DNA from: Mesorhizobium sp.
Lineage (GTDB): Bacteria > Pseudomonadota > Alphaproteobacteria > Rhizobiales > Rhizobiaceae
Length of the DNA: 64,000 nucleotides
NCBI GenBank assembly: GCA_004017535.1
Contig: SAJS01000014.1
Coordinates: 1 to 64,000, forward strand
Reading direction: 5' to 3'
Part shown: one piece after another, positions 50,801-64,000 of the stretch
How the letters are laid out: every line of letters starts with the position of its first letter
How positions within the stretch are numbered: position 1 is the first letter of the stretch
Translations under genes and position numbers: made by a program
The notes under the pieces: model-generated
The model's database searches: none
What the model saw: the letters and a program-made list of their open reading frames with translations, nothing else
Told to the model about the DNA's origin: nothing

Positions 50801-52027
50801 CTAAGCGCCGGGATTCTCCGGTCCGGCCAGGTACATCGTTGCCGCCGAAACCAGAGTAAGGACGCCGCTCTTCAACGCCGCCTCGTCGACGCGGAACCTG
50901 GAATGGTGAAGCGGATAGACCGATCCGACCTCCTCGTTGCGGATGCCGAGCCGGAAATAGACCGACGGGCGTTTCTCGCTGTAGTAACCGAAGTCGTCCG
51001 CAATGCTCCATCCAGGCATGTTGAGAGCATTGTCCGCGCCGATGCTGGCCTTGGCGCCAGCCATTATGAGCGCGGCCATACCGGCATCGTTGACGACGCC
51101 CGGCTCGCCCCGATGGATGTCGATCTTAACGCTTGCGCCGTGGCTTGCCGCTATTCCTTCAAGCATCTCACGAAGCCGTCGCCAAGCGCGCTCGCGAGTG
51201 GCGTCGTTGCCGCTGCGGATCGTGCCTTTGAACGCGACCTTGCCGGCAGTGACGTTATAGGCATTGCCGCCATTGATGGCGGTCACCGAGATGACCAGCG
51301 GATCATAGGGATCGGTCTCGCGCGAAACGACCTTCTGCAGCTCGCTCACCATCGAGCAGGCGACAGTCAGCGCGTCTATACCTTCATAGGGCTTTGCCGC
51401 ATGCGCCGCCGAGCCGGTGACCAGCACATCGAACGTGTCGCACGCCAAAGTGTAGGGACCCGGGCCGACGGCGACCTTGCCGGACGGCGTATATGGATCG
51501 ACATGGACGCAGATCGCGGCATCGATGTCGTCGAGAAGCCCCTCCTCGACCACCCGTCGCCCACCGGACGGTTCATCTTCCTCGGCCGGCTGGAAGATGA
51601 GGCGAACGGTTCCGCCGAAACTGTCGCGTGAGCGATTGAGATGCGCGGCGACTGCAAAGCCCATCGCGGCATGGGCGTCATGGCCGCAGGCATGCATCAC
51701 GCCCGGATTTTCCGACGCAAAGTCGACGCCGGACACCTCCTCGATCGGCAAGGCGTCGATATCGGCGCGGATCGCCACCTTGCGGTTCGAAGGCCGGCCA
51801 GTGCCGACGATGTCGACGGTAAGCCCGTAGCCAGCGACGTCGCGGATCTCGGCGATCCCTTCCTTTGCAAGCATCTCGCGCAAATAGCGCTGCGTGCCCG
51901 CCTCCCGGTTCGACAGCTCCGGATGGCGATGCAGATGGCGTCGGATCTCGATCATCCGACCGAGAATTCCGGCATCGATGTCGGGAGCGGCATCGCTCGC
52001 TGAAGACGGCCGGTCAGGCTTTGACAT
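50801..52027 (-). CDS. M20-family amidohydrolase
   Basis: A 408-residue di-zinc hydrolase of the M20D group (hippurate/IAA-amino-acid hydrolase, N-acetyl-diaminopimelate deacetylase). Metal-site motifs are HACGHDAHAAMG, IFQPAEEDEP and CVHVDPYTPSG. The dimerisation lid domain (about residues 190-310) is present. It starts 14 bases inside the end of the M24-like gene and is surely co-translated with it. It probably removes an N-acyl group from a product of that partner. The natural substrate is unknown; N-acetyl-diaminobutyrate is one possibility by analogy with ectoine breakdown. Confidence 0.9.
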   Translation of the reverse strand: MSKPDRPSSASDAAPDIDAGILGRMIEIRRHLHRHPELSNREAGTQRYLREMLAKEGIAEIRDVAGYGLTVDIVGTGRPSNRKVAIRADIDALPIEEVSGVDFASENPGVMHACGHDAHAAMGFAVAAHLNRSRDSFGGTVRLIFQPAEEDEPSGGRRVVEEGLLDDIDAAICVHVDPYTPSGKVAVGPGPYTLACDTFDVLVTGSAAHAAKPYEGIDALTVACSMVSELQKVVSRETDPYDPLVISVTAINGGNAYNVTAGKVAFKGTIRSGNDATRERAWRRLREMLEGIAASHGASVKIDIHRGEPGVVNDAGMAALIMAGAKASIGADNALNMPGWSIADDFGYYSEKRPSVYFRLGIRNEEVGSVYPLHHSRFRVDEAALKSGVLTLVSAATMYLAGPENPGA

Positions 52028-53192
52028 GGATGTCCCGCGGGAATTTCGTCAGCGTCTCGTTGCCGGTTTCGGTCACCAGAATGGTCTCGCTGACCTCGAT
52101 ACCCCATCCGTCCATCCACATGCCCAGGATGGAATGAACGACATTGCCCGGTTGCAGCACCGTCTTGTCGCCAGGCCGCAGGCTGATCGTGTGCTCGCCC
52201 CAATCCGGCGGATAGGCAACGCCGATGGAATAGCCGATGCGCGATTCCTTCTTCAGCCCGTGACGCGCAATGACCTTGCGCCAGGCGGCTTCGACCGCTT
52301 CGGCGGTCGTGCCCGGCCGTACCGTGTCGAGCACCGCATCCATGCCTTCGATCACCGCCTTTGCCGTGTCCGCGACGCGGGTCGGCGTCTTGCCGAGCTG
52401 CATGGTCCTGGCAAGCCCGGCGGCATAGCGGCGGCAGACGCCGGCGAGTTCCAGCGCGATGGTTTCGTCCTTTCCGAAACGCCGGTCGCTCCACATGATG
52501 TGCGGCGCGGAAGCGTTTTCGCCGCCGAGGATCGTCGGCGGCAGCGCCGTGATGTCGCCGGCGAAATCCGGGCTGCCGGCGATCTGCGCCGCCTGGATGG
52601 AAGCAATCGCATCGCATTCGCGCACACCCGGCGCAATGACGTCATAGGCCCGCGCGACCGCCGCCTCGGCCAGTGTCGATGCCTTGCGAAGATAGGCGAT
52701 TTCCGGCTCCGACTTGACCGCGCGGATCCAGTTCACGAGCAGGTCGGCGTCGTGCCATTTGGCGTTGGGCAGTCCGGCGACGAGCCGCGCATGCGCCTTG
52801 GGCGAGAAATAATAGGCTTCGAGCTCGATGCCGATTTGACGGTTGCCCCAGCCCTTGGCGACGATCCAGGCCGCGATCCAGTCCATCGGATGACGGTCGG
52901 CGCGCTGGACATGGTCCTCCGGGAAGCCGACGACGTTTTCCGGCTTCATCCAGGCCGTCAGCAGCCCGCCAGCCGCATCCATGGCGCGGCCGATCCAGAC
53001 AGGCTCCGCGCCCTCGATGGGAACAAGCACCACCTGCGGCGTGTAGAACGACCAGCCGTCATAGCCGGTGATGTAGTGCTGGTTGGCGACGTCGTTGACG
53101 ATCAGGAGTTCGATGCCGCGCCTGGCCATCTCGGCGCGGATTTTTCCGAGCCGCTGCTGGTACTCGGCGCGGGCAAAAGGCAGTTCAATCAT
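52014..53192 (-). CDS. M24-fold hydrolase resembling ectoine hydrolase (DoeA/EutD), metal ligands lost
   Basis: A 392-residue 'pita-bread' protein with creatinase-type N-terminal domain (YITGYDGWSFYTPQVV at 40-54) and M24 C-terminal domain. Canonical M24 metal positions are replaced: Asp to Glu248 and Gly259 in the ALELAGVCRRYAAGLART stretch, the GHG His to Tyr321, and the final Glu to about Ser368. This loss is what is known for ectoine hydrolases, and YDGWSFYTPQ resembles them. The frequent product label, Xaa-Pro peptidase, is therefore doubtful. GGAG precedes the ATG. No ectoine transport or doeB-D gene is adjacent. Confidence 0.8.
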   Translation of the reverse strand: MIELPFARAEYQQRLGKIRAEMARRGIELLIVNDVANQHYITGYDGWSFYTPQVVLVPIEGAEPVWIGRAMDAAGGLLTAWMKPENVVGFPEDHVQRADRHPMDWIAAWIVAKGWGNRQIGIELEAYYFSPKAHARLVAGLPNAKWHDADLLVNWIRAVKSEPEIAYLRKASTLAEAAVARAYDVIAPGVRECDAIASIQAAQIAGSPDFAGDITALPPTILGGENASAPHIMWSDRRFGKDETIALELAGVCRRYAAGLARTMQLGKTPTRVADTAKAVIEGMDAVLDTVRPGTTAEAVEAAWRKVIARHGLKKESRIGYSIGVAYPPDWGEHTISLRPGDKTVLQPGNVVHSILGMWMDGWGIEVSETILVTETGNETLTKFPRDIHVKA

Positions 53193-54275: not shown

Positions 54276-54352
54276 TGGCGCGAGTGACGGGGCTCGAACC
54301 CGCGACCTCCGGCGTGACAGGCCGGCACTCTAACCGACTGAGCTACACCCGC
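54276..54352 (-). tRNA. tRNA-Asp(GTC)
   Basis: A 77-base cloverleaf on the - strand: acceptor GCGGGTG/CACTCGC, D-arm GCTC...GAGT, anticodon stem CCGGC/GCCGG with loop CTGTCAC (anticodon GTC), T-loop TTCGAGC, encoded CCA. All stems pair, with G-U pairs allowed. Confidence 0.96.
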
Positions 54353-54571: not shown

Positions 54572-54647
<76 letters not shown>

Positions 54648-55210: not shown

Positions 55211-56140
55211 TCATGCCTTCGCCAGTAGCGCCTCGACCTCTTGCAATGTCGGCATCGACGGCGCGGTGCCGGGTCGGGTCACCGAAATGCCGGCGACCGC
55301 GCAGGCGAAGCGCACGGCCTCCAGCGGCTCGACGCCTTTTGCCAGAGCCGCGGCGAGTCCACCATTGAAGGCGTCACCCGCCCCGGTGGTCTCGACCACC
55401 GGGCCGGCATTGACGGCGCCGACATGGTCGGATCGGTCTTTGGTGTGCAGAAGCGCGCCCTTTTCTCCCAGCGTCACGATGACGGCGCCGACGCCCTTGG
55501 CCAGCAGAGCGTCGGCGGCGCGGCGGGCGTCGTCGACCGACGACACCTTGATGCCGGTCAGCCCTTCGGCCTCGGTCTCGTTGGGCGTGACATAGTCGCA
55601 GAGCGTGTAGATGCGGTCTGGCAGGCTTGCCGCCGGCGCGGGATTGAGAATGGTCGTCACCCCTGCCCCACGCGCGATTTCCAGCGCTCTCAACGCCGCG
55701 TCGATCGGCTGTTCGAGCTGGGTGACGAAGACGCCGGCGGAACGAATGAGCTCGGCATGCGCCTCGATGTCTTCGGGCGAGATCAGCATCGCGGCCCCCG
55801 GGCTGACGATGATGGCATTGTTGCCGCTGCCTTCCTCGACGAAGATATAGGCCGCGCCCGTATAGCTGTCCGGCGTGTCGATGACGGCGCTTTTCACGCC
55901 TGCGCCCTTCCAGGTCTGCTTGGCCATATCGGCGAAGGCATCGAGGCCGAGGCGCGTCAGGAAGGTGATGTCGGCGCCAAGCTTGCCGGCCGCCACCGCC
56001 TGGTTCGAGCCCTTGCCGCCCGGCCCGAGCTTGAAGGAATTGCCGAGGATCGTCTCGCCCATGCGCGGCTGACGATCGGCGCGATAGGCGGTGTCGGCGA
56101 CGAACACACCCAGGATCACAACGGGCTTGGGGGCGGCCAT
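55211..56140 (-). CDS. rbsK: Ribokinase-like PfkB sugar kinase
   Basis: A 309-residue carbohydrate kinase. The ribokinase signatures are clear: GPGGKGSNQAVAAGKLGADITFL near residue 45 and the catalytic anion-hole motif TTGAGDAFNGGLAAAL near residue 265. It phosphorylates ribose or a related sugar at the 5-position. It starts 4 bases after the RbsD/FucU-like gene and is the last gene of the - arm (ATPase, mutarotase, kinase). The ATG at 56140 has GGAG 7 bases upstream. The sugar may not be ribose, given the dehydrogenase and isomerase nearby. Confidence 0.92.
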   Translation of the reverse strand: MAAPKPVVILGVFVADTAYRADRQPRMGETILGNSFKLGPGGKGSNQAVAAGKLGADITFLTRLGLDAFADMAKQTWKGAGVKSAVIDTPDSYTGAAYIFVEEGSGNNAIIVSPGAAMLISPEDIEAHAELIRSAGVFVTQLEQPIDAALRALEIARGAGVTTILNPAPAASLPDRIYTLCDYVTPNETEAEGLTGIKVSSVDDARRAADALLAKGVGAVIVTLGEKGALLHTKDRSDHVGAVNAGPVVETTGAGDAFNGGLAAALAKGVEPLEAVRFACAVAGISVTRPGTAPSMPTLQEVEALLAKA

Positions 56141-56144
56141 GTCC

Positions 56145-56597
56145 TTACTCCGCATCCGGCGGCACAACGCCTTTGCGGAAGGCAAAGCAGCCATAGAAGC
56201 GGCGCTCGCCGGTCTGGATCACGCAATAGGCCTTCTTGGAGCGCTCGTAAAAGGCGTAGCGCTCGATCGAGATCATCGGCCAGGGTTTGCCCTCGGCCGC
56301 GTCGATCTCCTTCTGGACCTCCTTCTGCACCGGCGGGATCTCATTCGGCTTACCGACGATCTCCATGCGCGCCGCGGCATCGTTGACGAACGTATCCAGC
56401 GGATAGAGCGACAGCACCGCCTTCACCACGTCGGCCGCCGTCGCATCGATGCGCAAGAGCTTGCCGAGCACGGTTTGCCGCGCCACCGAGTCGGACGGGA
56501 AATTGGTGTCGGCGATGATCAGGTCGTCGCCATGGCCCATCGCCCGCAGCGCCTGGAGCACGTCGGCATTGAGCAGCGGATTGATCCCTTTGAGCAT
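56145..56597 (-). CDS. RbsD/FucU-family sugar mutarotase
   Basis: A 150-residue protein that interconverts anomers of ribose or fucose (RbsD/FucU family). Seen are LKGINPLLNADVLQALRAMGHGDDLIIADTNFPS with the catalytic His in MGHGD, and ERYAFYERSKKAYCVIQTGERRFYG at the C-terminus, the FucU-like active-site strand. The sequence looks closer to FucU than RbsD because of this C-terminal block, which would fit L-fucose or a related 6-deoxy sugar. It lies between the ABC ATPase and the kinase gene. Confidence 0.9.
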   Translation of the reverse strand: MLKGINPLLNADVLQALRAMGHGDDLIIADTNFPSDSVARQTVLGKLLRIDATAADVVKAVLSLYPLDTFVNDAAARMEIVGKPNEIPPVQKEVQKEIDAAEGKPWPMISIERYAFYERSKKAYCVIQTGERRFYGCFAFRKGVVPPDAE

Positions 56598-56630
56598 GGT
56601 TTCCTCCCGGAAGTCTGTGTGCGGTCTGGA

Positions 56631-56673
56631 GCAATTCCAGGAAAAGTGTGAGCGGTTTTCCGTCCGGAATTGC
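56631..56673. repeat. Palindromic repeat family A, copy 4
   Basis: GCAATTCC AGGAAAAGTGTGAGCGG TTTTCCGTCC GGAATTGC, nearly identical to the copy at 6087. It separates the ATPase gene from the mutarotase gene within one transcription unit. Confidence 0.9.
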
Positions 56674-56681
56674 GTAAAGAT

Positions 56682-57740
56682 CTAAAGTCGCTTGCCGGTT
56701 TCGGCGTCGAAGAGGTGGACCTGGTCGAGACGAGGCATCAGCTTGAGCGTGTCGCCCGGCTTGAAGTCGTGACGCTCGCGAAACAGCGCCACCATCTCGC
56801 CCTCGCCGAAGCGCACGAACACCAGGGTTTCCGAGCCGGTCGGCTCGACAACCGAGATCTTGGCCTCGACGCCGTCGGGATGGATCTCCAGGTGCTCCGG
56901 GCGCACGCCGTAGACGACGGCCTGACCATCCTCGCCGGCACTGTTGGCGGGCATCGGAAACGCCGTGCCGGCGATGTCGACGACCGGCTTCTCGCCCTTC
57001 CTCACGGTGCCCTTGAGCAGGTTCATCGCCGGCGAGCCGATAAAGCCGGCGACAAACAGATTGGCGGGCCGGTCAAACAATTCGAGCGGCGCGCCGATCT
57101 GCTCGATGCGGCCGTCGCGCATCACGACAATCTTGTCGGCCATGGTCATGGCCTCGATCTGGTCGTGGGTGACGTAGATCGTCGTGGTCTTCAACCGCTG
57201 GTGCAGTTCCTTGATCTCGGTGCGCATCTGCACGCGCAGCTTGGCGTCGAGGTTGGAGAGCGGCTCGTCGAACAGAAACACTTGCGGATTGCGCACGATG
57301 GCGCGGCCCATGGCGACGCGCTGGCGCTGACCGCCCGAAAGCTGGCGCGGATAGCGCTTGAGATAGGGCGCGAGGTCGAGGATGTCGGCGGCGCGCTTGA
57401 CGCGTTCGGCGACGACGGCCGGATCGGTGCCGCGCAGCTTCAGCGCGAAGGCCATGTTCTGCTCCACCGTCTTGTGCGGATAGAGCGCGTAATTCTGGAA
57501 CACCATCGCGATGTCGCGCTTAGCCGGCGGCAGGTTGTTGACGACGCGGTCGCCGATCGAGATCGTGCCGCCGGAAACCGTTTCCAGCCCGGCCACCATC
57601 CTGAGCAGCGTGGACTTGCCGCATCCTGAAGGGCCGACCAGCACGACGAATTGCCCATCGGCAATATCGACGCTGACCTCATGCAGGACCTTGACGGTCC
57701 CGAACGCCTTGGCCACACTGCTGATCGCGACTTGAGCCAT
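56682..57740 (-). CDS. Sugar ABC transporter ATP-binding protein (UgpC/MalK type)
   Basis: A 352-residue ATPase that powers a CUT1-type carbohydrate importer. Walker A is GPSGCGKST (36-44), signature LSGGQRQRVAMGRA, Walker B VFLFDEPLSNLDAKLR, followed by the MalK-type C-terminal regulatory (TOBE) domain (VYGVRPEHLEI, SETLVFVRFGEGE). GGGGAG precedes the ATG at 57740. It is divergent from the binding-protein gene; its permeases are on the other strand at 59.8-61.9 kb. Confidence 0.95.
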   Translation of the reverse strand: MAQVAISSVAKAFGTVKVLHEVSVDIADGQFVVLVGPSGCGKSTLLRMVAGLETVSGGTISIGDRVVNNLPPAKRDIAMVFQNYALYPHKTVEQNMAFALKLRGTDPAVVAERVKRAADILDLAPYLKRYPRQLSGGQRQRVAMGRAIVRNPQVFLFDEPLSNLDAKLRVQMRTEIKELHQRLKTTTIYVTHDQIEAMTMADKIVVMRDGRIEQIGAPLELFDRPANLFVAGFIGSPAMNLLKGTVRKGEKPVVDIAGTAFPMPANSAGEDGQAVVYGVRPEHLEIHPDGVEAKISVVEPTGSETLVFVRFGEGEMVALFRERHDFKPGDTLKLMPRLDQVHLFDAETGKRL

Positions 57741-57826
57741 CGTCTCCCCTTTATCTTTTGCGGTGAAGCTAGCCATTGCCAGCGGCAACGGCAAGTCGGT
57801 ATCTTATAGTTAAAAAGCCAATCTTG

Positions 57827-57855
57827 TTGACAAGGTAATCGATTACGCGAATAGT
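57827..57855 (+). promoter_or_regulatory. Promoter with LacI-type operator in the spacer
   Basis: TTGACA (57827-57832), 17-base spacer, AATAGT (57850-57855). Inside the spacer lies the perfect 12-bp palindrome GTAATCGATTAC (57835-57846), centred on CG as in LacI/GalR-family operators. A repressor bound here would block polymerase for the binding-protein operon; it may also reach the divergent ATPase gene. No lacI-family gene is in the window. Confidence 0.75.
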
Positions 57856-58019
57856 GGCGAGTGCCAATCCGACGCAGGCCTGTTACCCTGAAATCGGAGC
57901 TCCGGCGACGCAGGGTGGGGTCCCACGTCCCCGTTTGATCGAGGAGAACCGTAGACGTTTGCACGTCCGAGAAATTGGCATTTCAATTCAATCGCTGTTG
58001 TTCTGGGAGGAACCTGTAG

Positions 58020-59696
58020 ATGAGAGTCGACCTATACGAAAAACTGATGCGCGCCGGTGCGAGCCGCCGCGATGTGCTGAAGGGTGCTGCCTCGATGGCC
58101 GCGATCGCAGCTGCGTCCGGTGCCGGGCTCGGCGCGCTGACGAGGCCGGCCGCGGCCGACGATAGTCTGCGTGCGAAAATCCTGCAGATCCCGGGCGTCG
58201 GCAAAGGCCAGCCGACGGATGCCGATTTCCAGAAGGTCGGCGAGCTCTGCCTGGAAGCGACCAAGGCCAATGTCAAGGAAGGCGAGTTCGCCGGTGTCGA
58301 GCTCACCTTCATGGGCCTCAACAACCAGAACCTGCACAACGTGCTGTTCCGTGGTTTCCTGAAGCCATGGGAGGCTTATACGGGCGCCAAGATCAGCTGG
58401 ATCGACCTTGCCCAGGCCGATTACAACGCCCGTCTGCAGCAGTCGATCGCCACCGGCACCGTCGACTTCGACATCATCGAGATGGGCGCGCCCTTCGAAG
58501 GCGATGTCTGCGGCAAGGGCCTCACCTCCGAGATGCCCGACTGGGTCAAGAAGCAGATCGACTTCGACGACCTGGTCAACTATCTCAAGCCGCCGGTCGG
58601 CACCTGGAACGGCAAGCAGTATCGCGTGACGATCGACGGCGACGCGCATAATTTCAACTACCGCACCGACGTGTTCTCCGACTCCGAGCTGGCGGCAGCC
58701 TGGAAGGCGGACAGCGGCGACAAGGCGGGCCTGACGGAGTGGGGCGTGCCCAAGACCTGGCAGCAGGTCCAGGCCGTGACCAAGTTCCTGAAGGGCAAGA
58801 AATTCAAGGGCCAGGACGTCTATGGCTATCTCGACGCGCCCAAGCCCTGGGGCGGTTTCGGCTTCTATTTCCTCGGCAGCCGCGCCACCGCCTATGCCAA
58901 GCACCCCGACGACAAGGCCTGGCTGTTCGACGCCGACACGATGAAGCCGCGCGTCAACAATCCGGCCTGGGTGCGCGCCATCCAGGACGTCATCGACGCC
59001 CTGCCGTCCGAGCCCGCCGACCAGATCAACGCCGATCCGAACACGACCGCCTTCCAGCAGTTCCTGGCCGGCACCGGCTCGATGATCCCCTGGTGGGGCG
59101 ATGTTGGCTCGAACGTGAAGACCAATGACTCGTCGGTCATCGGCGACGTCACCGGCTTCTCGATCCTGCCCGGCTCAGACGATGTGTACAACTCCAAGAC
59201 CGGCAAATGGGACAAGCTCGCCAGCGGCCCGAACTATGCGCCGAACTGCGCCTATCTCGGCTGGGGCGTCTATGTCATGGCCCGCGTCGACAAGGACGAG
59301 AAGAAGAAGAAGGCGGCGTGGTCGGCCGCCGCGCATCTCGGCGGCAAGGACCTGTCGATCTGGACGGCGATGTATCCGTCGGGCTTCCAACCCTACCGCA
59401 ACTCCCATTTCAACATTCCCGAATGGGTAGCTGCCGGCTATGACGAAGCCTTCATCACCTCCTACCTCAAGTCGGAAGGCGATAGCTACAACCATCCGAA
59501 TGCCGCCATCGAGCCGCGCATCCCCGGCATCTTCCAGTACTATTCCGCCGCCGAGGACATCCTGGCCAACACTTTCGCCGGCAAGATGAAGGCGCAGGAA
59601 GGCGCCGATGCCATCGCAGCGGCCTGGGAAAAGCTGACCGACCAGATCGGCCGCGAAAACCAGATCAAGCTCTACAAAGCCTCGCTCGGCATGTAG
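58020..59696 (+). CDS. Tat-exported sugar ABC substrate-binding protein, long form
   Basis: A 558-residue periplasmic solute-binding protein of the family 1 (CUT1) type. The N-terminus has a twin-arginine signal, ASRRDVLKGAASMAAIAAA (Arg16-Arg17), so it is exported folded. The mature part has a typical SBP core (VELTFMGLNNQNLHN; DFDIIEMGAPFEG; PWWGDVGSNVKTND) but is about 130 residues longer than usual maltose-type proteins, like a subgroup seen with sugar and polyol transporters of rhizobia. GGGAGGAA stands 8 bases before the ATG. First gene of the + arm, under the LacI-type operator. Confidence 0.92.
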   Translation: MRVDLYEKLMRAGASRRDVLKGAASMAAIAAASGAGLGALTRPAAADDSLRAKILQIPGVGKGQPTDADFQKVGELCLEATKANVKEGEFAGVELTFMGLNNQNLHNVLFRGFLKPWEAYTGAKISWIDLAQADYNARLQQSIATGTVDFDIIEMGAPFEGDVCGKGLTSEMPDWVKKQIDFDDLVNYLKPPVGTWNGKQYRVTIDGDAHNFNYRTDVFSDSELAAAWKADSGDKAGLTEWGVPKTWQQVQAVTKFLKGKKFKGQDVYGYLDAPKPWGGFGFYFLGSRATAYAKHPDDKAWLFDADTMKPRVNNPAWVRAIQDVIDALPSEPADQINADPNTTAFQQFLAGTGSMIPWWGDVGSNVKTNDSSVIGDVTGFSILPGSDDVYNSKTGKWDKLASGPNYAPNCAYLGWGVYVMARVDKDEKKKKAAWSAAAHLGGKDLSIWTAMYPSGFQPYRNSHFNIPEWVAAGYDEAFITSYLKSEGDSYNHPNAAIEPRIPGIFQYYSAAEDILANTFAGKMKAQEGADAIAAAWEKLTDQIGRENQIKLYKASLGM

Positions 59697-59713
59697 GCTA
59701 TCTCGACCAAGTC

Positions 59714-59744
59714 GCGGCCCGGCGACACCTCGTCGCCGGGCCGC
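59714..59744 (+). terminator. Strong hairpin between binding protein and permease genes
   Basis: GCGGCCCGGCGAC-ACCTC-GTCGCCGGGCCGC, a perfect 13-bp stem 17 bases after the stop codon, followed by GTATTTAT. It may stabilise or partly end the transcript so that the binding protein is made in excess over the permeases. Confidence 0.7.
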
Positions 59745-59755
59745 GTATTTATCCC

Positions 59756-59799
59756 GCAATTCCAGGAAATTTGTGCAGCGGTTTTCCGTCCGGAATTGC
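59756..59799. repeat. Palindromic repeat family A, copy 5
   Basis: GCAATTCC AGGAAATTTGTGCAGCGG TTTTCCGTCC GGAATTGC, directly after the hairpin at 59714-59744 and 30 bases before the permease start. A second stem-loop in the same intergenic gap. Confidence 0.88.
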
Positions 59800-59829
59800 G
59801 TCAAGAAGAAGCGCGAAGAGGCGAGAAGC

Positions 59830-60945
59830 GTGGCTGAGCAGACTTCGACCGCGAATGCGTGGCCGGCAAATCCGGCCGACCTGATCCCGCAAGGCCGCAA
59901 GCGCCTCGGCTGGAGCCTGCTGGCCGTCGCGAGCCTTGCCCTGCTGGCTATCATCGTCGTGCAGATCCTCTACAAGACCGAGATGTCCACGGTCGGCTTC
60001 GATACCTGGCGGCCGGTGATCTATGCCTACATCCTGTGGGGTGCAGCACTTGGTGCCTGGCAGGTGCTGACGCGCGGCGAGGACGGGCAGCGCGCGCTGT
60101 TCCTTTTGCCGGCGCTGCTCTTCACCATCGCCATGGTGATCTTTCCGACGCTGTTCGGCTTCTACATCGCGCTCACCGACTGGAACCTAAGTTCGTTTGC
60201 CGGACGCAGGTTCAACGGCCTCGACAATTTCTGGCAGATGCTGGCCGACCCCTACTACCGCAACGCGCTGTTCAACATGGTGCTCTACGTGCTTGCGGTG
60301 CTGGTGGAATATGTCATCGCCTTCGGCCTGGCGCTGCTGCTCAACGCGCAAATAAGCGCCCGCAAATTCTTCCGCGTCGTCTTCCTGCTGCCGCTGATGC
60401 TGTCGCCGGTCGCCGTGTCCTGGATGGTCGGCAAATCGCTGATGGAGTACCGGTTCGGCCCCGCGGCGACGCTGGCGCGTCATCTCGGCTGGGATAATCC
60501 CGCCTTCTTCTCCGACCCGATCACAGCCCGCATCTCGATCATGATGCTCGATGCCTGGACGTTCATCCCGTTCATGATGATCATGCTGCTCGCCGGCCTG
60601 CAGGCGATGTCGCGCGAGGTGCTGGAAGCCGCCCGCGTCGACGGCGCGACCGCGTGGCAGACCTTCTGGCAGGTCACTTTCCCGCTGATGCTGCCGGTAT
60701 CGGTGACGGCGGTGATCCTGCGCATCATCTTCAAGCTGAAGCTCGCCGACATCATCATCACCCTGACTTCAGGCGGCCCCGGCGGCGCCACCGATTCCGT
60801 GTCGAGCTTCATCTACCGCGAATACCGCGACCGCTCGAACGTCGGCTACGGCACAATGCTCGCCATGGCCTATCTGATCATCATCGTCGTGTTCGTGACC
60901 TGGCTGCTGAAAGTCGCCAGTCGTTTCGTGCGCAACGTCAACTGA
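59830..60945 (+). CDS. Sugar ABC transporter permease (MalF type)
   Basis: A 371-residue inner-membrane permease with about eight hydrophobic segments; the first two segments and a long N-terminal part (to about residue 80) are extra compared with the shortest MalF-type proteins. The ATPase-coupling EAA loop is EVLEAARVDGATAWQTFWQVTFPLM. A GTG at 59830 is used with GAGGCGAGAAG upstream; the frame is open further upstream through repeat A. It follows the binding protein by 133 bases and precedes the partner permease by 8. Confidence 0.9.
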   Translation: MAEQTSTANAWPANPADLIPQGRKRLGWSLLAVASLALLAIIVVQILYKTEMSTVGFDTWRPVIYAYILWGAALGAWQVLTRGEDGQRALFLLPALLFTIAMVIFPTLFGFYIALTDWNLSSFAGRRFNGLDNFWQMLADPYYRNALFNMVLYVLAVLVEYVIAFGLALLLNAQISARKFFRVVFLLPLMLSPVAVSWMVGKSLMEYRFGPAATLARHLGWDNPAFFSDPITARISIMMLDAWTFIPFMMIMLLAGLQAMSREVLEAARVDGATAWQTFWQVTFPLMLPVSVTAVILRIIFKLKLADIIITLTSGGPGGATDSVSSFIYREYRDRSNVGYGTMLAMAYLIIIVVFVTWLLKVASRFVRNVN

Positions 60946-60953
60946 GCGGCATC

Positions 60954-61871
60954 ATGAGCGTCCAGACCACCGACTATACCGTTTCCGAAATCCGCTCGCC
61001 GGCGGCCTTCATCACCAGCCGCGTCTTCATCTATGGCGCGCTCGTCTTCTGGGCATTCGTGTGCCTGTTCCCGATCTACTGGACGATCACCACCTCGTTC
61101 AAATCGGCGGTCGATGTCACGCAAGGCCATCTCATCCCCTTCGTCGACTTCACGCCCGACTGGAAGGGCTGGCGCTCGCTCGGCCTGTCGCCGGATTCGA
61201 TCTTCCAGACCTCGACCGTGCGCGACGAATTCCTCAAGCGCTTCATGAACTCGGTCATCACCTCGGTCGGCGCATCGGCTCTCGCCATCATAATCGGCAG
61301 CCTCGCCGCCTATGGCCTTGTCCGATACCGTTACAAATTCGCCTGGTTCAGGAACGAGGACATCTCCTTCTTCTTCCTGTCGCAGCTCATCCTGCCGCCG
61401 GTCGTGCTGGCGCTCCCGTTCCTGGTGCTCTACCGGGAAGTGGCGCTCCTCGATACGCGGATCGGGCTCGTGCTCCTCTACACGCTTATGGTGCTGCCGA
61501 TCGTCATCTGGATCATGCGCGACCAGTTCAACTCGATCCCTGTCGAATTGGAGGAAGCGGCCTTGGTCGACGGGCTGTCGATCTGGGGTGCGTTCTTCCG
61601 CATCGTCATGCCAATCGCCCTGCCCGGCATGGTCGCCGCCTTCATCCTGGCGATGGTGCTGTGCTGGAACGAGTATTTCTTCGCCGCGCTTCTGACGTCG
61701 ACCGACGCCAAGACCATCCCGGTCATGGTGGCGAGCCAGACCGGCTCGCAAGGCATCAACTGGTGGTCGATGGCAGCCCTGGCCACCGCCGCCATCGCAC
61801 CCCTGGCCATCATCGGCATCGCGCTCGAGCGCTACCTGATCATGGGCATGACGGCCGGCTCGGTGAAGTAG
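60954..61871 (+). CDS. Sugar ABC transporter permease (MalG type)
   Basis: A 305-residue permease with six hydrophobic segments. EAA loop: VELEEAALVDGLSIWGAFFRIVMPIALPG. It begins with SVQTTDYTVSE, a cytoplasmic N-terminus, then a periplasmic loop of about 60 residues after the first segment that is longer than usual. It pairs with the preceding permease and with the ATPase at 56682. It ends 44 bases before the convergent creatininase-family gene, with a palindromic repeat fragment between. Confidence 0.93.
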   Translation: MSVQTTDYTVSEIRSPAAFITSRVFIYGALVFWAFVCLFPIYWTITTSFKSAVDVTQGHLIPFVDFTPDWKGWRSLGLSPDSIFQTSTVRDEFLKRFMNSVITSVGASALAIIIGSLAAYGLVRYRYKFAWFRNEDISFFFLSQLILPPVVLALPFLVLYREVALLDTRIGLVLLYTLMVLPIVIWIMRDQFNSIPVELEEAALVDGLSIWGAFFRIVMPIALPGMVAAFILAMVLCWNEYFFAALLTSTDAKTIPVMVASQTGSQGINWWSMAALATAAIAPLAIIGIALERYLIMGMTAGSVK

Positions 61872-61879
61872 CTGGACCT

Positions 61880-61907
61880 TTCCTTCCCGCCTTGTGGGAG
61901 AAGGAAG
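61880..61907. repeat. Intergenic repeat fragment, 'TTGTGGGAGAAGG' type
   Basis: TTCCTTCCCGCCTTGTGGGAGAAGGAA: one arm pair (CCTTC ... GAAGG) of the repeat family at 73-130, lying between convergent gene ends, where it could terminate transcription. Confidence 0.55.
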
Positions 61908-61915
61908 CACCGCGC

Positions 61916-62659
61916 CTATCCCATCAGGATGGACCTTAAATGATCAAGGATCATGGCGACGCCGATCTTGCCGAGGCCTGCCGAGGCCTCCGCCGCGTCT
62001 TTCGTGTACCAGCCGGTGTTGTCGGCCAAATGCTTCTCGTCCACAGCCTCGGGGCATAGCGCCAGCATCAGCGAGGTTTCGCCTTTGCCGGCATGGTCGA
62101 ACGGGTATTTGCCGTTCATCGCGGCCGGCATCAGCGGGTGCACCTGCACCCAGTTGAAGACGTTCTCGCCTTGGGCATGGCCGGCATAGTAATCGGCCAT
62201 CGTGTTCGACCCCCACCAGCCCTCGCCGCGCTCCTTCTCCAGGAAGCGGAAGATCGCCTGCCGCCCCGCGGTCTTGAAGGCGAGGTCGGTCGGCATGCCG
62301 GCCACGAAATTTTCGGTCTGGTGGTGGATGATGGCGTGGATGTTGCGGAAGCCTATGCGCAACAGCCCGTAGAACAATTCCTCGGCGAATGGCGAAAGCA
62401 CCGGTCCACCGACCTGCACCGAGCCGCTGCCTTCCGGCGCCGCCACCGCATAGCTTGCCGCGCCGTAATAGAAGGGCGGCAGGATGACGAGGTCCCTCTC
62501 CTTCTCGATCAGCTCCACCGTCTTGATGACGGCCAAAGTGTCCATCCCGACCGCCATGTGCTCACCATGGTATTCGAGCACGCCGAGCGGCAGCACGACC
62601 GGCCAGTTCTCCTCGATCGCCTTGCGGATCTGGTGCGGCAGCATCAGTTCGTAGCGCAT
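61916..62659 (-). CDS. Creatininase-family metal-dependent amidohydrolase
   Basis: A 247-residue protein of the creatininase superfamily (creatininase, FAPy deformylase, MftE peptidase). Metal-ligand motif LGVLEYHGEHMAVGMD (Glu29, His31/34, Asp40), then HHQTENFV and GKGETSLML with the C-terminal Glu. Creatine or creatinine genes are absent; the enzyme probably opens a lactam, lactone or amide related to a sugar product. It starts 3 bases after the SIS gene stop; the GGAG Shine-Dalgarno lies within that junction. Substrate unknown. Confidence 0.85.
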   Translation of the reverse strand: MRYELMLPHQIRKAIEENWPVVLPLGVLEYHGEHMAVGMDTLAVIKTVELIEKERDLVILPPFYYGAASYAVAAPEGSGSVQVGGPVLSPFAEELFYGLLRIGFRNIHAIIHHQTENFVAGMPTDLAFKTAGRQAIFRFLEKERGEGWWGSNTMADYYAGHAQGENVFNWVQVHPLMPAAMNGKYPFDHAGKGETSLMLALCPEAVDEKHLADNTGWYTKDAAEASAGLGKIGVAMILDHLRSILMG

Positions 62660-62662
62660 GCC

Positions 62663-63229
62663 CTACTCCATATTGGTGTGCCTGGCGCGCATGGCTTCCG
62701 GCGTCGCATTGGTCAGCGCCTGGAGCCTCAGCACCATGATCTCGAACAACAGGAACAGCGCGCCTTCGAACAGCGAGCCCATTGGCAGCACCGAGCTTCT
62801 TGCCGTGCCCTGGTCGCTGGCCATGGTCTGCGCCGGGACGACCAGCGTGAAGTCGGCGAGTTTCGCCGCGCTGCCTGTCGGTTCGGCCGTCAGGAGCAGC
62901 ACCTTCGCGCCGGCATCGCGGGCAACCCGCATCAAGGTCAGCACCGTGGTGGTCTCGCCCGGCCCTGAGCTCGCCAGGAACACGTCGCCCTGCCCGAGCG
63001 GCGGCGTAGTCATGTCGCCGACCACCGAAACCGGCAGGCCGAGATGATAGAGCCGCATGGCAAAACCCTTCACCTGCAGCGCCTCGCGGCCGCATCCATA
63101 GACGGCGATCCTGCGGGCGCCGGCCAGCATGGCGCAGGCTGCGTCGATCCGGGCTTCATCCGTGCGCGCCAGCACCGCGCCAAGCTCGTCCAGCGCGGTC
63201 GCGAACATGCCGGATCCGGCTTTGCTCAT
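62663..63229 (-). CDS. SIS-domain sugar-phosphate isomerase (6-phospho-3-hexuloisomerase-like)
   Basis: A 188-residue single-SIS protein: ARRIAVYGCGREALQVKGFAMRLYHLG, then GDVFLASSGPGETTTVLTL, the sugar-phosphate-binding Ser cluster, and a C-terminal helical part with LFEGALFLLFEIMVL. Best match by pattern is 6-phospho-3-hexuloisomerase (PHI) of the ribulose-monophosphate route; no hexulose-phosphate synthase is adjacent. A start at ATG 63229 is used; a GTG at 63241 would add four residues. Overlapping reading of the GGTGAG site supports 63229. First gene of a unit with the creatininase-family gene. Confidence 0.8.
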   Translation of the reverse strand: MSKAGSGMFATALDELGAVLARTDEARIDAACAMLAGARRIAVYGCGREALQVKGFAMRLYHLGLPVSVVGDMTTPPLGQGDVFLASSGPGETTTVLTLMRVARDAGAKVLLLTAEPTGSAAKLADFTLVVPAQTMASDQGTARSSVLPMGSLFEGALFLLFEIMVLRLQALTNATPEAMRARHTNME

Positions 63230-63417
63230 GGCATGGCTCACCCTGTCTGCGCGAAGTCGCGTGTCTCTATAGATTCGGCGGCTCGCTGGCCGCGCAAGGC
63301 TTGTTTTTGTTCATGCTACCATTGCGAAAATCGCTGTCCAACGAGCCTCGGCACTTTTGCTGGGCCACCGGCGTGATAGTGTCATGTCAGACAAATCGCT
63401 CCGGGACATCGTCAGAC

Positions 63418-64000
63418 ATGAAGACACGGCACTTCGATCGCATCGGCAATGGCGGCATCACCTTCACCGAACTCGGCTTCGGCACCGCGCCGCTCGGCAA
63501 TCTCTACCGCGCCATCTCCGACGAGGACGCCAATGCCACCCTGGAGGCGGCATGGAAGGCTGGCTGCCGCTACTTCGATACGGCGCCGCTTTACGGCCTC
63601 GGCCTGTCGGAAACCCGCCTCAACCCTTTCCTGCGCGGCAGGAAGCGCGACGACTATGTGCTGTCGAGCAAGGTCGGCCGCCTCATGCGCGTCGCCCCGC
63701 CGGACCAGCGCACCGGCATCGGCAAGTTCTTCGAGACGCCGTCGCGCCGAGAAGTCTACGACTACTCCTATGACGGCGTCATGCGCTCCTTCGAGGCCTC
63801 GCTGGAGCGTCTTGGCGTCGACCGCATCGACATCCTCTTCGTGCACGACGTCGACATCTTCACCCATGGCAGCAAGGAAGCCTCGGATGCCCGTATCGCG
63901 GAGTTCATGTCGTCCGGCTATTACGGGCTGCTTTCGCTGCGCGACCAAGGCGTGATCAAGGCCTTCGGCGGCGGCATCAATGAATGGCAGGTCGCGCAGA
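63418..64000 (+). CDS. Aldo/keto reductase, D-threo-aldose/L-fucose dehydrogenase-like (truncated by window end)
   Basis: The first 194 residues of an aldo/keto reductase; the frame is open at base 64000. The catalytic tetrad is visible as Asp54 and Tyr59 in RYFDTAPLYG, Lys85 in SSKVGR and His143 in FVHD. An insertion around residues 94-118 (APPDQRTGIGKFFETPSRRE...YDYSYDG) is typical of the pyridoxal 4-dehydrogenase/D-threo-aldose 1-dehydrogenase subgroup, which oxidises L-fucose, L-galactose or D-arabinose to lactones. The ATG at 63418 matches the family N-terminus. Divergent from the SIS gene with a 188-base shared gap. Confidence 0.85.
   Translation, partial: MKTRHFDRIGNGGITFTELGFGTAPLGNLYRAISDEDANATLEAAWKAGCRYFDTAPLYGLGLSETRLNPFLRGRKRDDYVLSSKVGRLMRVAPPDQRTGIGKFFETPSRREVYDYSYDGVMRSFEASLERLGVDRIDILFVHDVDIFTHGSKEASDARIAEFMSSGYYGLLSLRDQGVIKAFGGGINEWQVAQ

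Follow-up and report, generated by a model that had tools for sequence, protein, structure and literature searches.

Gene content and conservation of the locus

Nine genes at the right-hand end of a 64,000-nucleotide window of Mesorhizobium DNA (G000:C5:1-64000, from a genome of 6.86 Mb) very probably constitute one sugar-use system, because dozens of species have retained these genes as a set. According to the gene calls and profile scores, the genes are arranged in four blocks on alternating strands (Table 1). An ATP-binding cassette (ABC) ATPase, a FucU-type mutarotase and a kinase form the first block, on the minus strand (57740 to 55211). A binding protein and two permeases occupy the second, on the plus strand (58020-61871), and a SIS-domain isomerase is paired with a creatininase-family hydrolase in the third, on the minus strand (63241 to 61916). 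The fourth block is the gene of an aldo/keto reductase (AKR) on the plus strand, which runs from 63418 to contig position 64440, and the locus therefore ends slightly beyond the window. These gene types had been named at this place in a first-pass annotation of the sequence, and the profile scores and gene calls bear that annotation out. The kinase start that it had given, 56194, was corrected, 56140 being the probable position.

The same annotation had supposed that a lactonase, a dehydratase and an aldolase might be encoded past position 64000. They are not directly beyond it. The AKR gene is followed by an HU-type gene, lon, clpX and clpP, and the pathway is thus not completed downstream. 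The extension past position 64000 had been set beforehand as a test, and neither a fucose nor a ribose pathway was completed by it.

Named genomes were scanned with 14 aligned creatininases as queries, and the best 80 loci by identity, which lean to Mesorhizobium, were compared. Gene presence was counted by tblastn with hand-set thresholds, because the gene caller missed genes in some loci. Among the matches listed, all nine genes are present in 53 of the 59 Mesorhizobium-group loci (L157-L215), and lon is also present in 51 of these 53. The earlier proposal of one conserved locus that combines phosphorylation with oxidation is supported. Three of the six incomplete loci are cut by contig ends (L190, L193 and L215). 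The SIS gene is missing from L211, L213, L214 and L215, where the gap between the creatininase and AKR genes is 280-333 bases compared to the usual ~760. In the fetched neighbourhoods of the other 21 listed loci, the binding protein was found in 11 and all nine genes in 3. All nine genes are under constraint, the SIS gene least. When 11 Mesorhizobium-group loci are compared with the window, the median ratio of nonsynonymous to synonymous differences (pN/pS) is 0.10-0.18 for the transporter, kinase, mutarotase and AKR genes, 0.20 for the creatininase and 0.34 for the SIS gene, with 0.08 for lon.

The linkage extends to the family, of which 297 genomes from 109 genera were sampled. Some match to the binding protein (E <= 0.001) is present in 206 of the 297 genomes and a strong match in 64. 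The creatininase (E <= 1e-30) occurs in 15 genomes of 8 genera, and all 15 are among the 64. Both genes are in one locus in 13 of the 15, and on separate contigs in G134 and G087. The association is not due to chance (naive P 2e-11; by genus 3e-5; neither value corrects for ancestry). Conservation of the creatininase and SIS genes with the transporter in relatives, whose absence had been named beforehand as a refuting outcome, was found.

Table 1. Features of the locus, in window positions, with the basis of each assignment
Feature	Position	Strand	Basis
Ribokinase-type PfkB kinase (RbsK-like)	55211..56140	-	TIGR02152 above cut-off; best solved relatives ribokinases
RbsD/FucU-family mutarotase, FucU side	56145..56597	-	profile scores; best solved relative Atu2016 (2ob5)
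UgpC/MalK-type ABC ATPase	56682..57740	-	profile scores
Promoter-like TTGACA-N17-AATAGT, 5' of binding-protein gene	57827..57855	+	sequence pattern
558-residue Tat-type solute-binding protein	58020..59696	+	matches in genomes of the family, alignment; low-confidence model nearest MalE-type sugar binders
ABC permease, MalF type	59773..60945	+	profile scores
ABC permease, MalG type	60954..61871	+	profile scores
Creatininase-family metallohydrolase, own subfamily	61916..62659	-	profile scores, comparisons
SIS-domain sugar-phosphate isomerase, PHI (HxlB) type	62663..63241	-	profile scores, alignment
Aldo/keto reductase, aldose-dehydrogenase type	63418..64000 in window, on to contig position 64440	+	PF00248

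The enzymes and the importer

The creatininase-family protein scores 92.4 against the PF02633 cut-off of 31.3 and has the fold of that family. It stays far below the cut-offs of three curated function models: the creatininase equivalog TIGR04448 (64.7 bits, cut-off 235), the IolN 3-dehydro-scyllo-inosose hydrolase NF041098 (50.9, cut-off 245) and MftE TIGR03964 (40.5, cut-off 172). E29, H31 and D40 of the locus protein align with the metal site of creatininase, which we take to consist of E34, H36, D45, H120 and E122 (creatininase numbering), whereas the alignment of the HHQTEN loop is ambiguous and residues 115-119 in this region have a predicted local distance difference test (pLDDT) score under 50. 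The protein has its fold in common with creatininase, MftE and IolN, and apparently also most of the metal-site residues that align, but differs from them in its scores, its HHQ(T/S)EN loop and its setting in a sugar locus. Judged by these comparisons, it is a distinct subfamily.

Orthologues of this protein are also found in other settings. In the alphaproteobacterial loci L223, L227, L228 and L230 the gene lies beside a sulfatase-family gene, which in L228 scores to PehA below the cut-off, and a fuconolactonase-like amidohydrolase is also present in L223 and L228. A non-exhaustive look by eye recognised no sugar-polymer hydrolases beside the five outlying loci L235, L226, L224, L229 and L218. 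The orthologue in L229 directly follows a peptide-type ABC operon and that in L218 is near Liv-type ABC genes, both types being named by eye.

The SIS protein scores 161.2 bits against the 6-phospho-3-hexuloisomerase (PHI) model TIGR03127, whose cut-off is 160, and the PHI core, comprising the PMGS..E and MRARHTNME regions, is kept in 80 sequences. This match is the likeness to the PHI (HxlB) of the ribulose monophosphate (RuMP) pathway, but the window genome contains no hexulose-phosphate synthase (HPS, HxlA) above the cut-off of 200 bits, the best score being 21; the same search gave scores above the cut-off in 2 of 14 control genomes. The SIS protein is therefore probably not a RuMP enzyme. 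A paralogue in L130 directly adjoins FucU and kinase homologues and another transporter, and one in L132 is accompanied by a dihydroxyacetone-kinase-family protein and a TIM-barrel protein. Such neighbours favour a role after a sugar kinase. One Mesorhizobium-group locus, L198, carries two copies of the SIS gene.

The mutarotase belongs to the RbsD_FucU family (PF05025, 124 against a cut-off of 25). Its best NCBIfam model is the L-fucose mutarotase NF011949, although its 90.1 bits fall short of the cut-off of 141, and it scores 34.6 bits against the D-ribose pyranase model. Among solved structures Atu2016 ranks first and FucU proteins follow. The AKR, cut by the window edge, is a protein of 340 residues related to L-galactose dehydrogenases. 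Elsewhere in the genome, on contig C11, there is an enolase-superfamily gene for which we assume the name FucD; its product is 63% identical to a protein of a relative and scores above the cut-off of no NCBIfam model.

The ATPase is of the UgpC/MalK type, with 511 bits against a subfamily cut-off of 432. Together with the MalF- and MalG-type permeases it fits the CUT1 class of importers, whereas the binding protein has no match in Pfam or NCBIfam. A search of solved structures with its sequence gave two matches, with E values of 0.13 and 0.57. All 21 aligned sequences have the twin arginines R16-R17, which presumably represent the motif of a twin-arginine translocation (Tat) signal and are consistent with export of the protein by Tat. 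The L-fucose binding protein SMc02774 of S. meliloti was set aside as a relative on its published assignment to CUT2, without direct comparison of the two proteins; the likeness lies in L-fucose uptake and in an adjoining gene for a putative fucose dehydrogenase (PMC3454389). In Mesorhizobium sp. AR07 (L191), the binding protein and permeases are 73, 59 and 72% identical to those of the window, and the other six genes 75-91%. From these values the transporter genes look as if they had been swapped in place.

The promoter-like sequence upstream of the binding-protein gene contains, inside its spacer, the palindrome GTAATCGATTAC (57835-57846), which occurs only once in the genome and which we take as a candidate LacI-type operator. 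A -35/-10 pair with a spacer of 16-18 is present in 56 of 60 intergenic stretches and the palindrome core in 22 of them. An operator common to both divergent promoters was sought, and none was found. A GCGA-N3-TCGC repeat precedes the SIS and AKR genes in 12 of 51 loci.

Longer versions in other genera

Sixty neighbourhoods from the family were compared, some of them cut by contig ends and two coming from one genome (L048 and L099); L041-L043 and L103 were left out. The window's genus contributes five. The AKR is found in 29 of the 60, an FGGY kinase in 25, an M42 peptidase in 24, BtpA in 23, the SIS protein in 21, the creatininase in 12 and a fuconolactonase-like amidohydrolase in 10. Behind the SIS gene, other genera often carry the FGGY, M42 and BtpA genes. 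A FucD-like dehydratase is nearby once. BtpA is also present in 12 of the 16 SIS loci of other genera. The longest operon has the order creatininase-SIS-FGGY-M42-BtpA, with the AKR gene opposite (L087 and L092). A search for BtpA at E <= 1e-10 found nothing in the whole window genome, nor in G155, G217 and G221, and the Mesorhizobium form is thus a short version; of these three proteins, the whole-genome search covered BtpA alone.

Over 256 residues the BtpA protein of L087 shares 46% identity with E. coli SgcQ, and over 350 residues the M42 protein of this locus shares 38% with SgcX. The likeness to sgcXBCQAER concerns the relatives of the locus and not the Mesorhizobium form itself; the window locus has neither gene. 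Furthermore, the E. coli operon encodes a phosphotransferase system, whereas an ABC importer and kinases are encoded here. The sgc substrate is described as not established; the operon is reported to be induced on carbon sources that contain nitrogen, and its mutants to show no growth defect (PMC13343008).

On the plasmids of Agrobacterium vitis and Rhizobium leguminosarum that were examined, the importer, FucU and kinase genes are joined to a second half, comprised of a CUT2 importer, a TIM-barrel isomerase-like protein, an RpiR regulator and a second kinase. On a Phyllobacterium plasmid the importer is joined to the same half. The window genome has a counterpart on contig C1 (L155), with a CUT2 importer, a TIM-barrel isomerase-like protein (69%), an RpiR regulator (70%) and a second ribokinase-like protein (53%). 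In L088, L093, L100, L102 and L139, the second kinase and TIM-barrel genes are near the AKR gene or near FGGY-M42-BtpA.

Proposed route and its alternatives

Confidence that the nine genes form one sugar-use locus is good, and confidence in the identity of the sugar and in the role of the creatininase-family enzyme is low. The explanation that we favour, tentatively and with less than even confidence, is the import of an aldose of D-arabinose/L-fucose configuration, or of a small compound containing one, through the CUT1-type importer with its Tat-exported binding protein, followed by a phosphorylating and an oxidising branch. The reactions, all of which we infer, would be as follows. FucU would provide the correct ring form of the sugar and the ribokinase-type kinase would phosphorylate it. 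Acting on this product, by our best guess D-arabinose 5-phosphate, the SIS protein would yield its isomer, ribulose 5-phosphate, for the pentose phosphate pathway. Alongside, the AKR would oxidise the free sugar to a lactone, and the creatininase-family enzyme, a candidate lactonase, would open this lactone or a lactam or amide relative of it. D-Arabinose is the preferred guess because PHI chemistry with one carbon fewer converts arabinose 5-phosphate to ribulose 5-phosphate. The FucU protein, the AKR and the fuconolactonase-type neighbour of relatives presumably all fit the D-arabinose/L-fucose configuration.

The pattern of gene presence hints at such an opening of the lactone but does not reach significance. 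In the 29 family neighbourhoods with an AKR, the creatininase and the fuconolactonase-like gene occur together once, each occurs alone nine times and neither is present in ten, so that replacement of one by the other is not significant (Fisher p 0.098).

Several observations weigh against the proposed route. The two lactonase candidates are not exclusive, since both are present in L048 (of which L220 is a named copy) and in L216. In other genera the creatininase is dispensable, being present in only 7 of 55 loci, and no transporter was found near it in the examined neighbourhoods of L223, L227, L228 and L230. The SIS protein exceeds the TIGR03127 cut-off by just 1.2 bits, is absent from L211, L213, L214, L215 and L220, which keep the creatininase, and has relatives of 52-56% identity in L134 and L136 whose neighbours, judged by eye, are not sugar genes. 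There is no glycosidase among the nine genes. The AlphaFold model of the binding protein is poor (pLDDT 55), and its Foldseek list was therefore used only for the description 'MalE-like'. Finally, the kinase scores 311.5 bits against the D-ribokinase model TIGR02152 (cut-off 299.65), which points to ribose.

The kinase score, together with ribokinases as the best relatives of solved structure, is what speaks for a ribose or riboside system, in which RbsK would be a true ribokinase, FucU would serve as ribose pyranase, and the SIS protein and AKR would act on side products. This reading is improbable: the mutarotase is closer to FucU than to RbsD, and ribose use needs no SIS protein, creatininase or aldose dehydrogenase. 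The kinase stays below the cut-off of a second ribokinase model, PRK11142 (284.8, cut-off 341). A nitrogen-containing sugar conjugate as ligand, such as an aminoacyl sugar, glycosylamide or lactam, is unlikely too, but deserves more weight. The creatininase-family enzyme and the M42 protein of relatives would cut amides, and the kinase, SIS protein and AKR would use the sugar. Two amidase-type families do occur in one cluster in several genera, the ABC neighbours in L229 and L218 agree with such a cargo, and sgc, with its BtpA and M42 homologues, is reported to be induced on nitrogen-containing carbon sources (PMC13343008). On the other hand, the window locus has neither M42 nor BtpA, and no aminotransferase or deaminase is among the nine genes. 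Moreover, peptide-type ABC systems carry sugars as well.

The kept PHI-type core and the lack of an HPS above cut-off would also suit a genuine 3-ketose isomerase, if the kinase phosphorylated a 3-ketohexose and the SIS protein yielded a 2-ketose 6-phosphate. This is quite improbable, there being no dehydrogenase or hydrolase that forms a 3-keto-sugar among the nine genes. The least probable reading, a chance neighbourhood in which the transporter-kinase units, the SIS-creatininase unit and the AKR serve different purposes, draws on the separate transcription units, for which no common operator was found, and on the absence of the AKR, SIS or creatininase gene from many of the 60 loci, but must contend with a linkage that recurs across genera and inside Mesorhizobium.

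Known pathways resemble parts of the locus. Oxidative L-fucose and D-arabinose pathways proceed through an aldose dehydrogenase, a lactonase, FucD and later steps. The FucU-type mutarotase and the AKR agree with them, as do the fuconolactonase-like amidohydrolase and the single FucD-like dehydratase of relatives; the window locus, however, lacks a lactonase, dehydratase and aldolase of known type and contains a kinase and an isomerase. The ribose operon combines RbsD and RbsK with an ABC importer, and mutarotase, ribokinase and importer genes adjoin here also, but the importer is of MalK type, the mutarotase is on the FucU side, and the SIS, creatininase and AKR genes are extra. No known pathway matched in the tests run: known enzyme families are newly combined, with one distinct creatininase subfamily. 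The open-licence PMC papers searched term by term yielded no description of the combination, in line with the earlier judgement that it is not a pathway that can be named.

It is conceivable, though we would not expect it, that the locus represents a new sugar pathway. In it, a PHI-type SIS protein no longer tied to RuMP would follow a ribokinase-like kinase and isomerise D-arabinose 5-phosphate (or a 3-ketose phosphate), the substrate of a new creatininase subfamily would be a sugar lactone or amide, and the BtpA/M42 version of other genera would be the same type of pathway as E. coli sgc. If the locus works in the way that we favour, a role would be found for a creatininase subfamily that stays below the cut-off of every curated function model applied to it, a PHI-type isomerase would act outside formaldehyde fixation, and laboratory rhizobia and their relatives would offer a setting for the roles of BtpA/SgcQ and M42/SgcX, the question posed by sgc. 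At present the locus is an uncharacterised, well conserved nutrient locus.

Immediately to the left of the locus are a tRNA-Asp gene (54276-54352, minus strand) and a tRNA-Val gene (54572-54647, plus strand). Further left, at 50801-53192 on the minus strand, the window encodes an M20 amidohydrolase and an M24 protein, which from their sequences are possibly an ectoine-type degradation pair; the M24 protein scores 456 bits against ectoine hydrolase DoeA, below the cut-off of 613.
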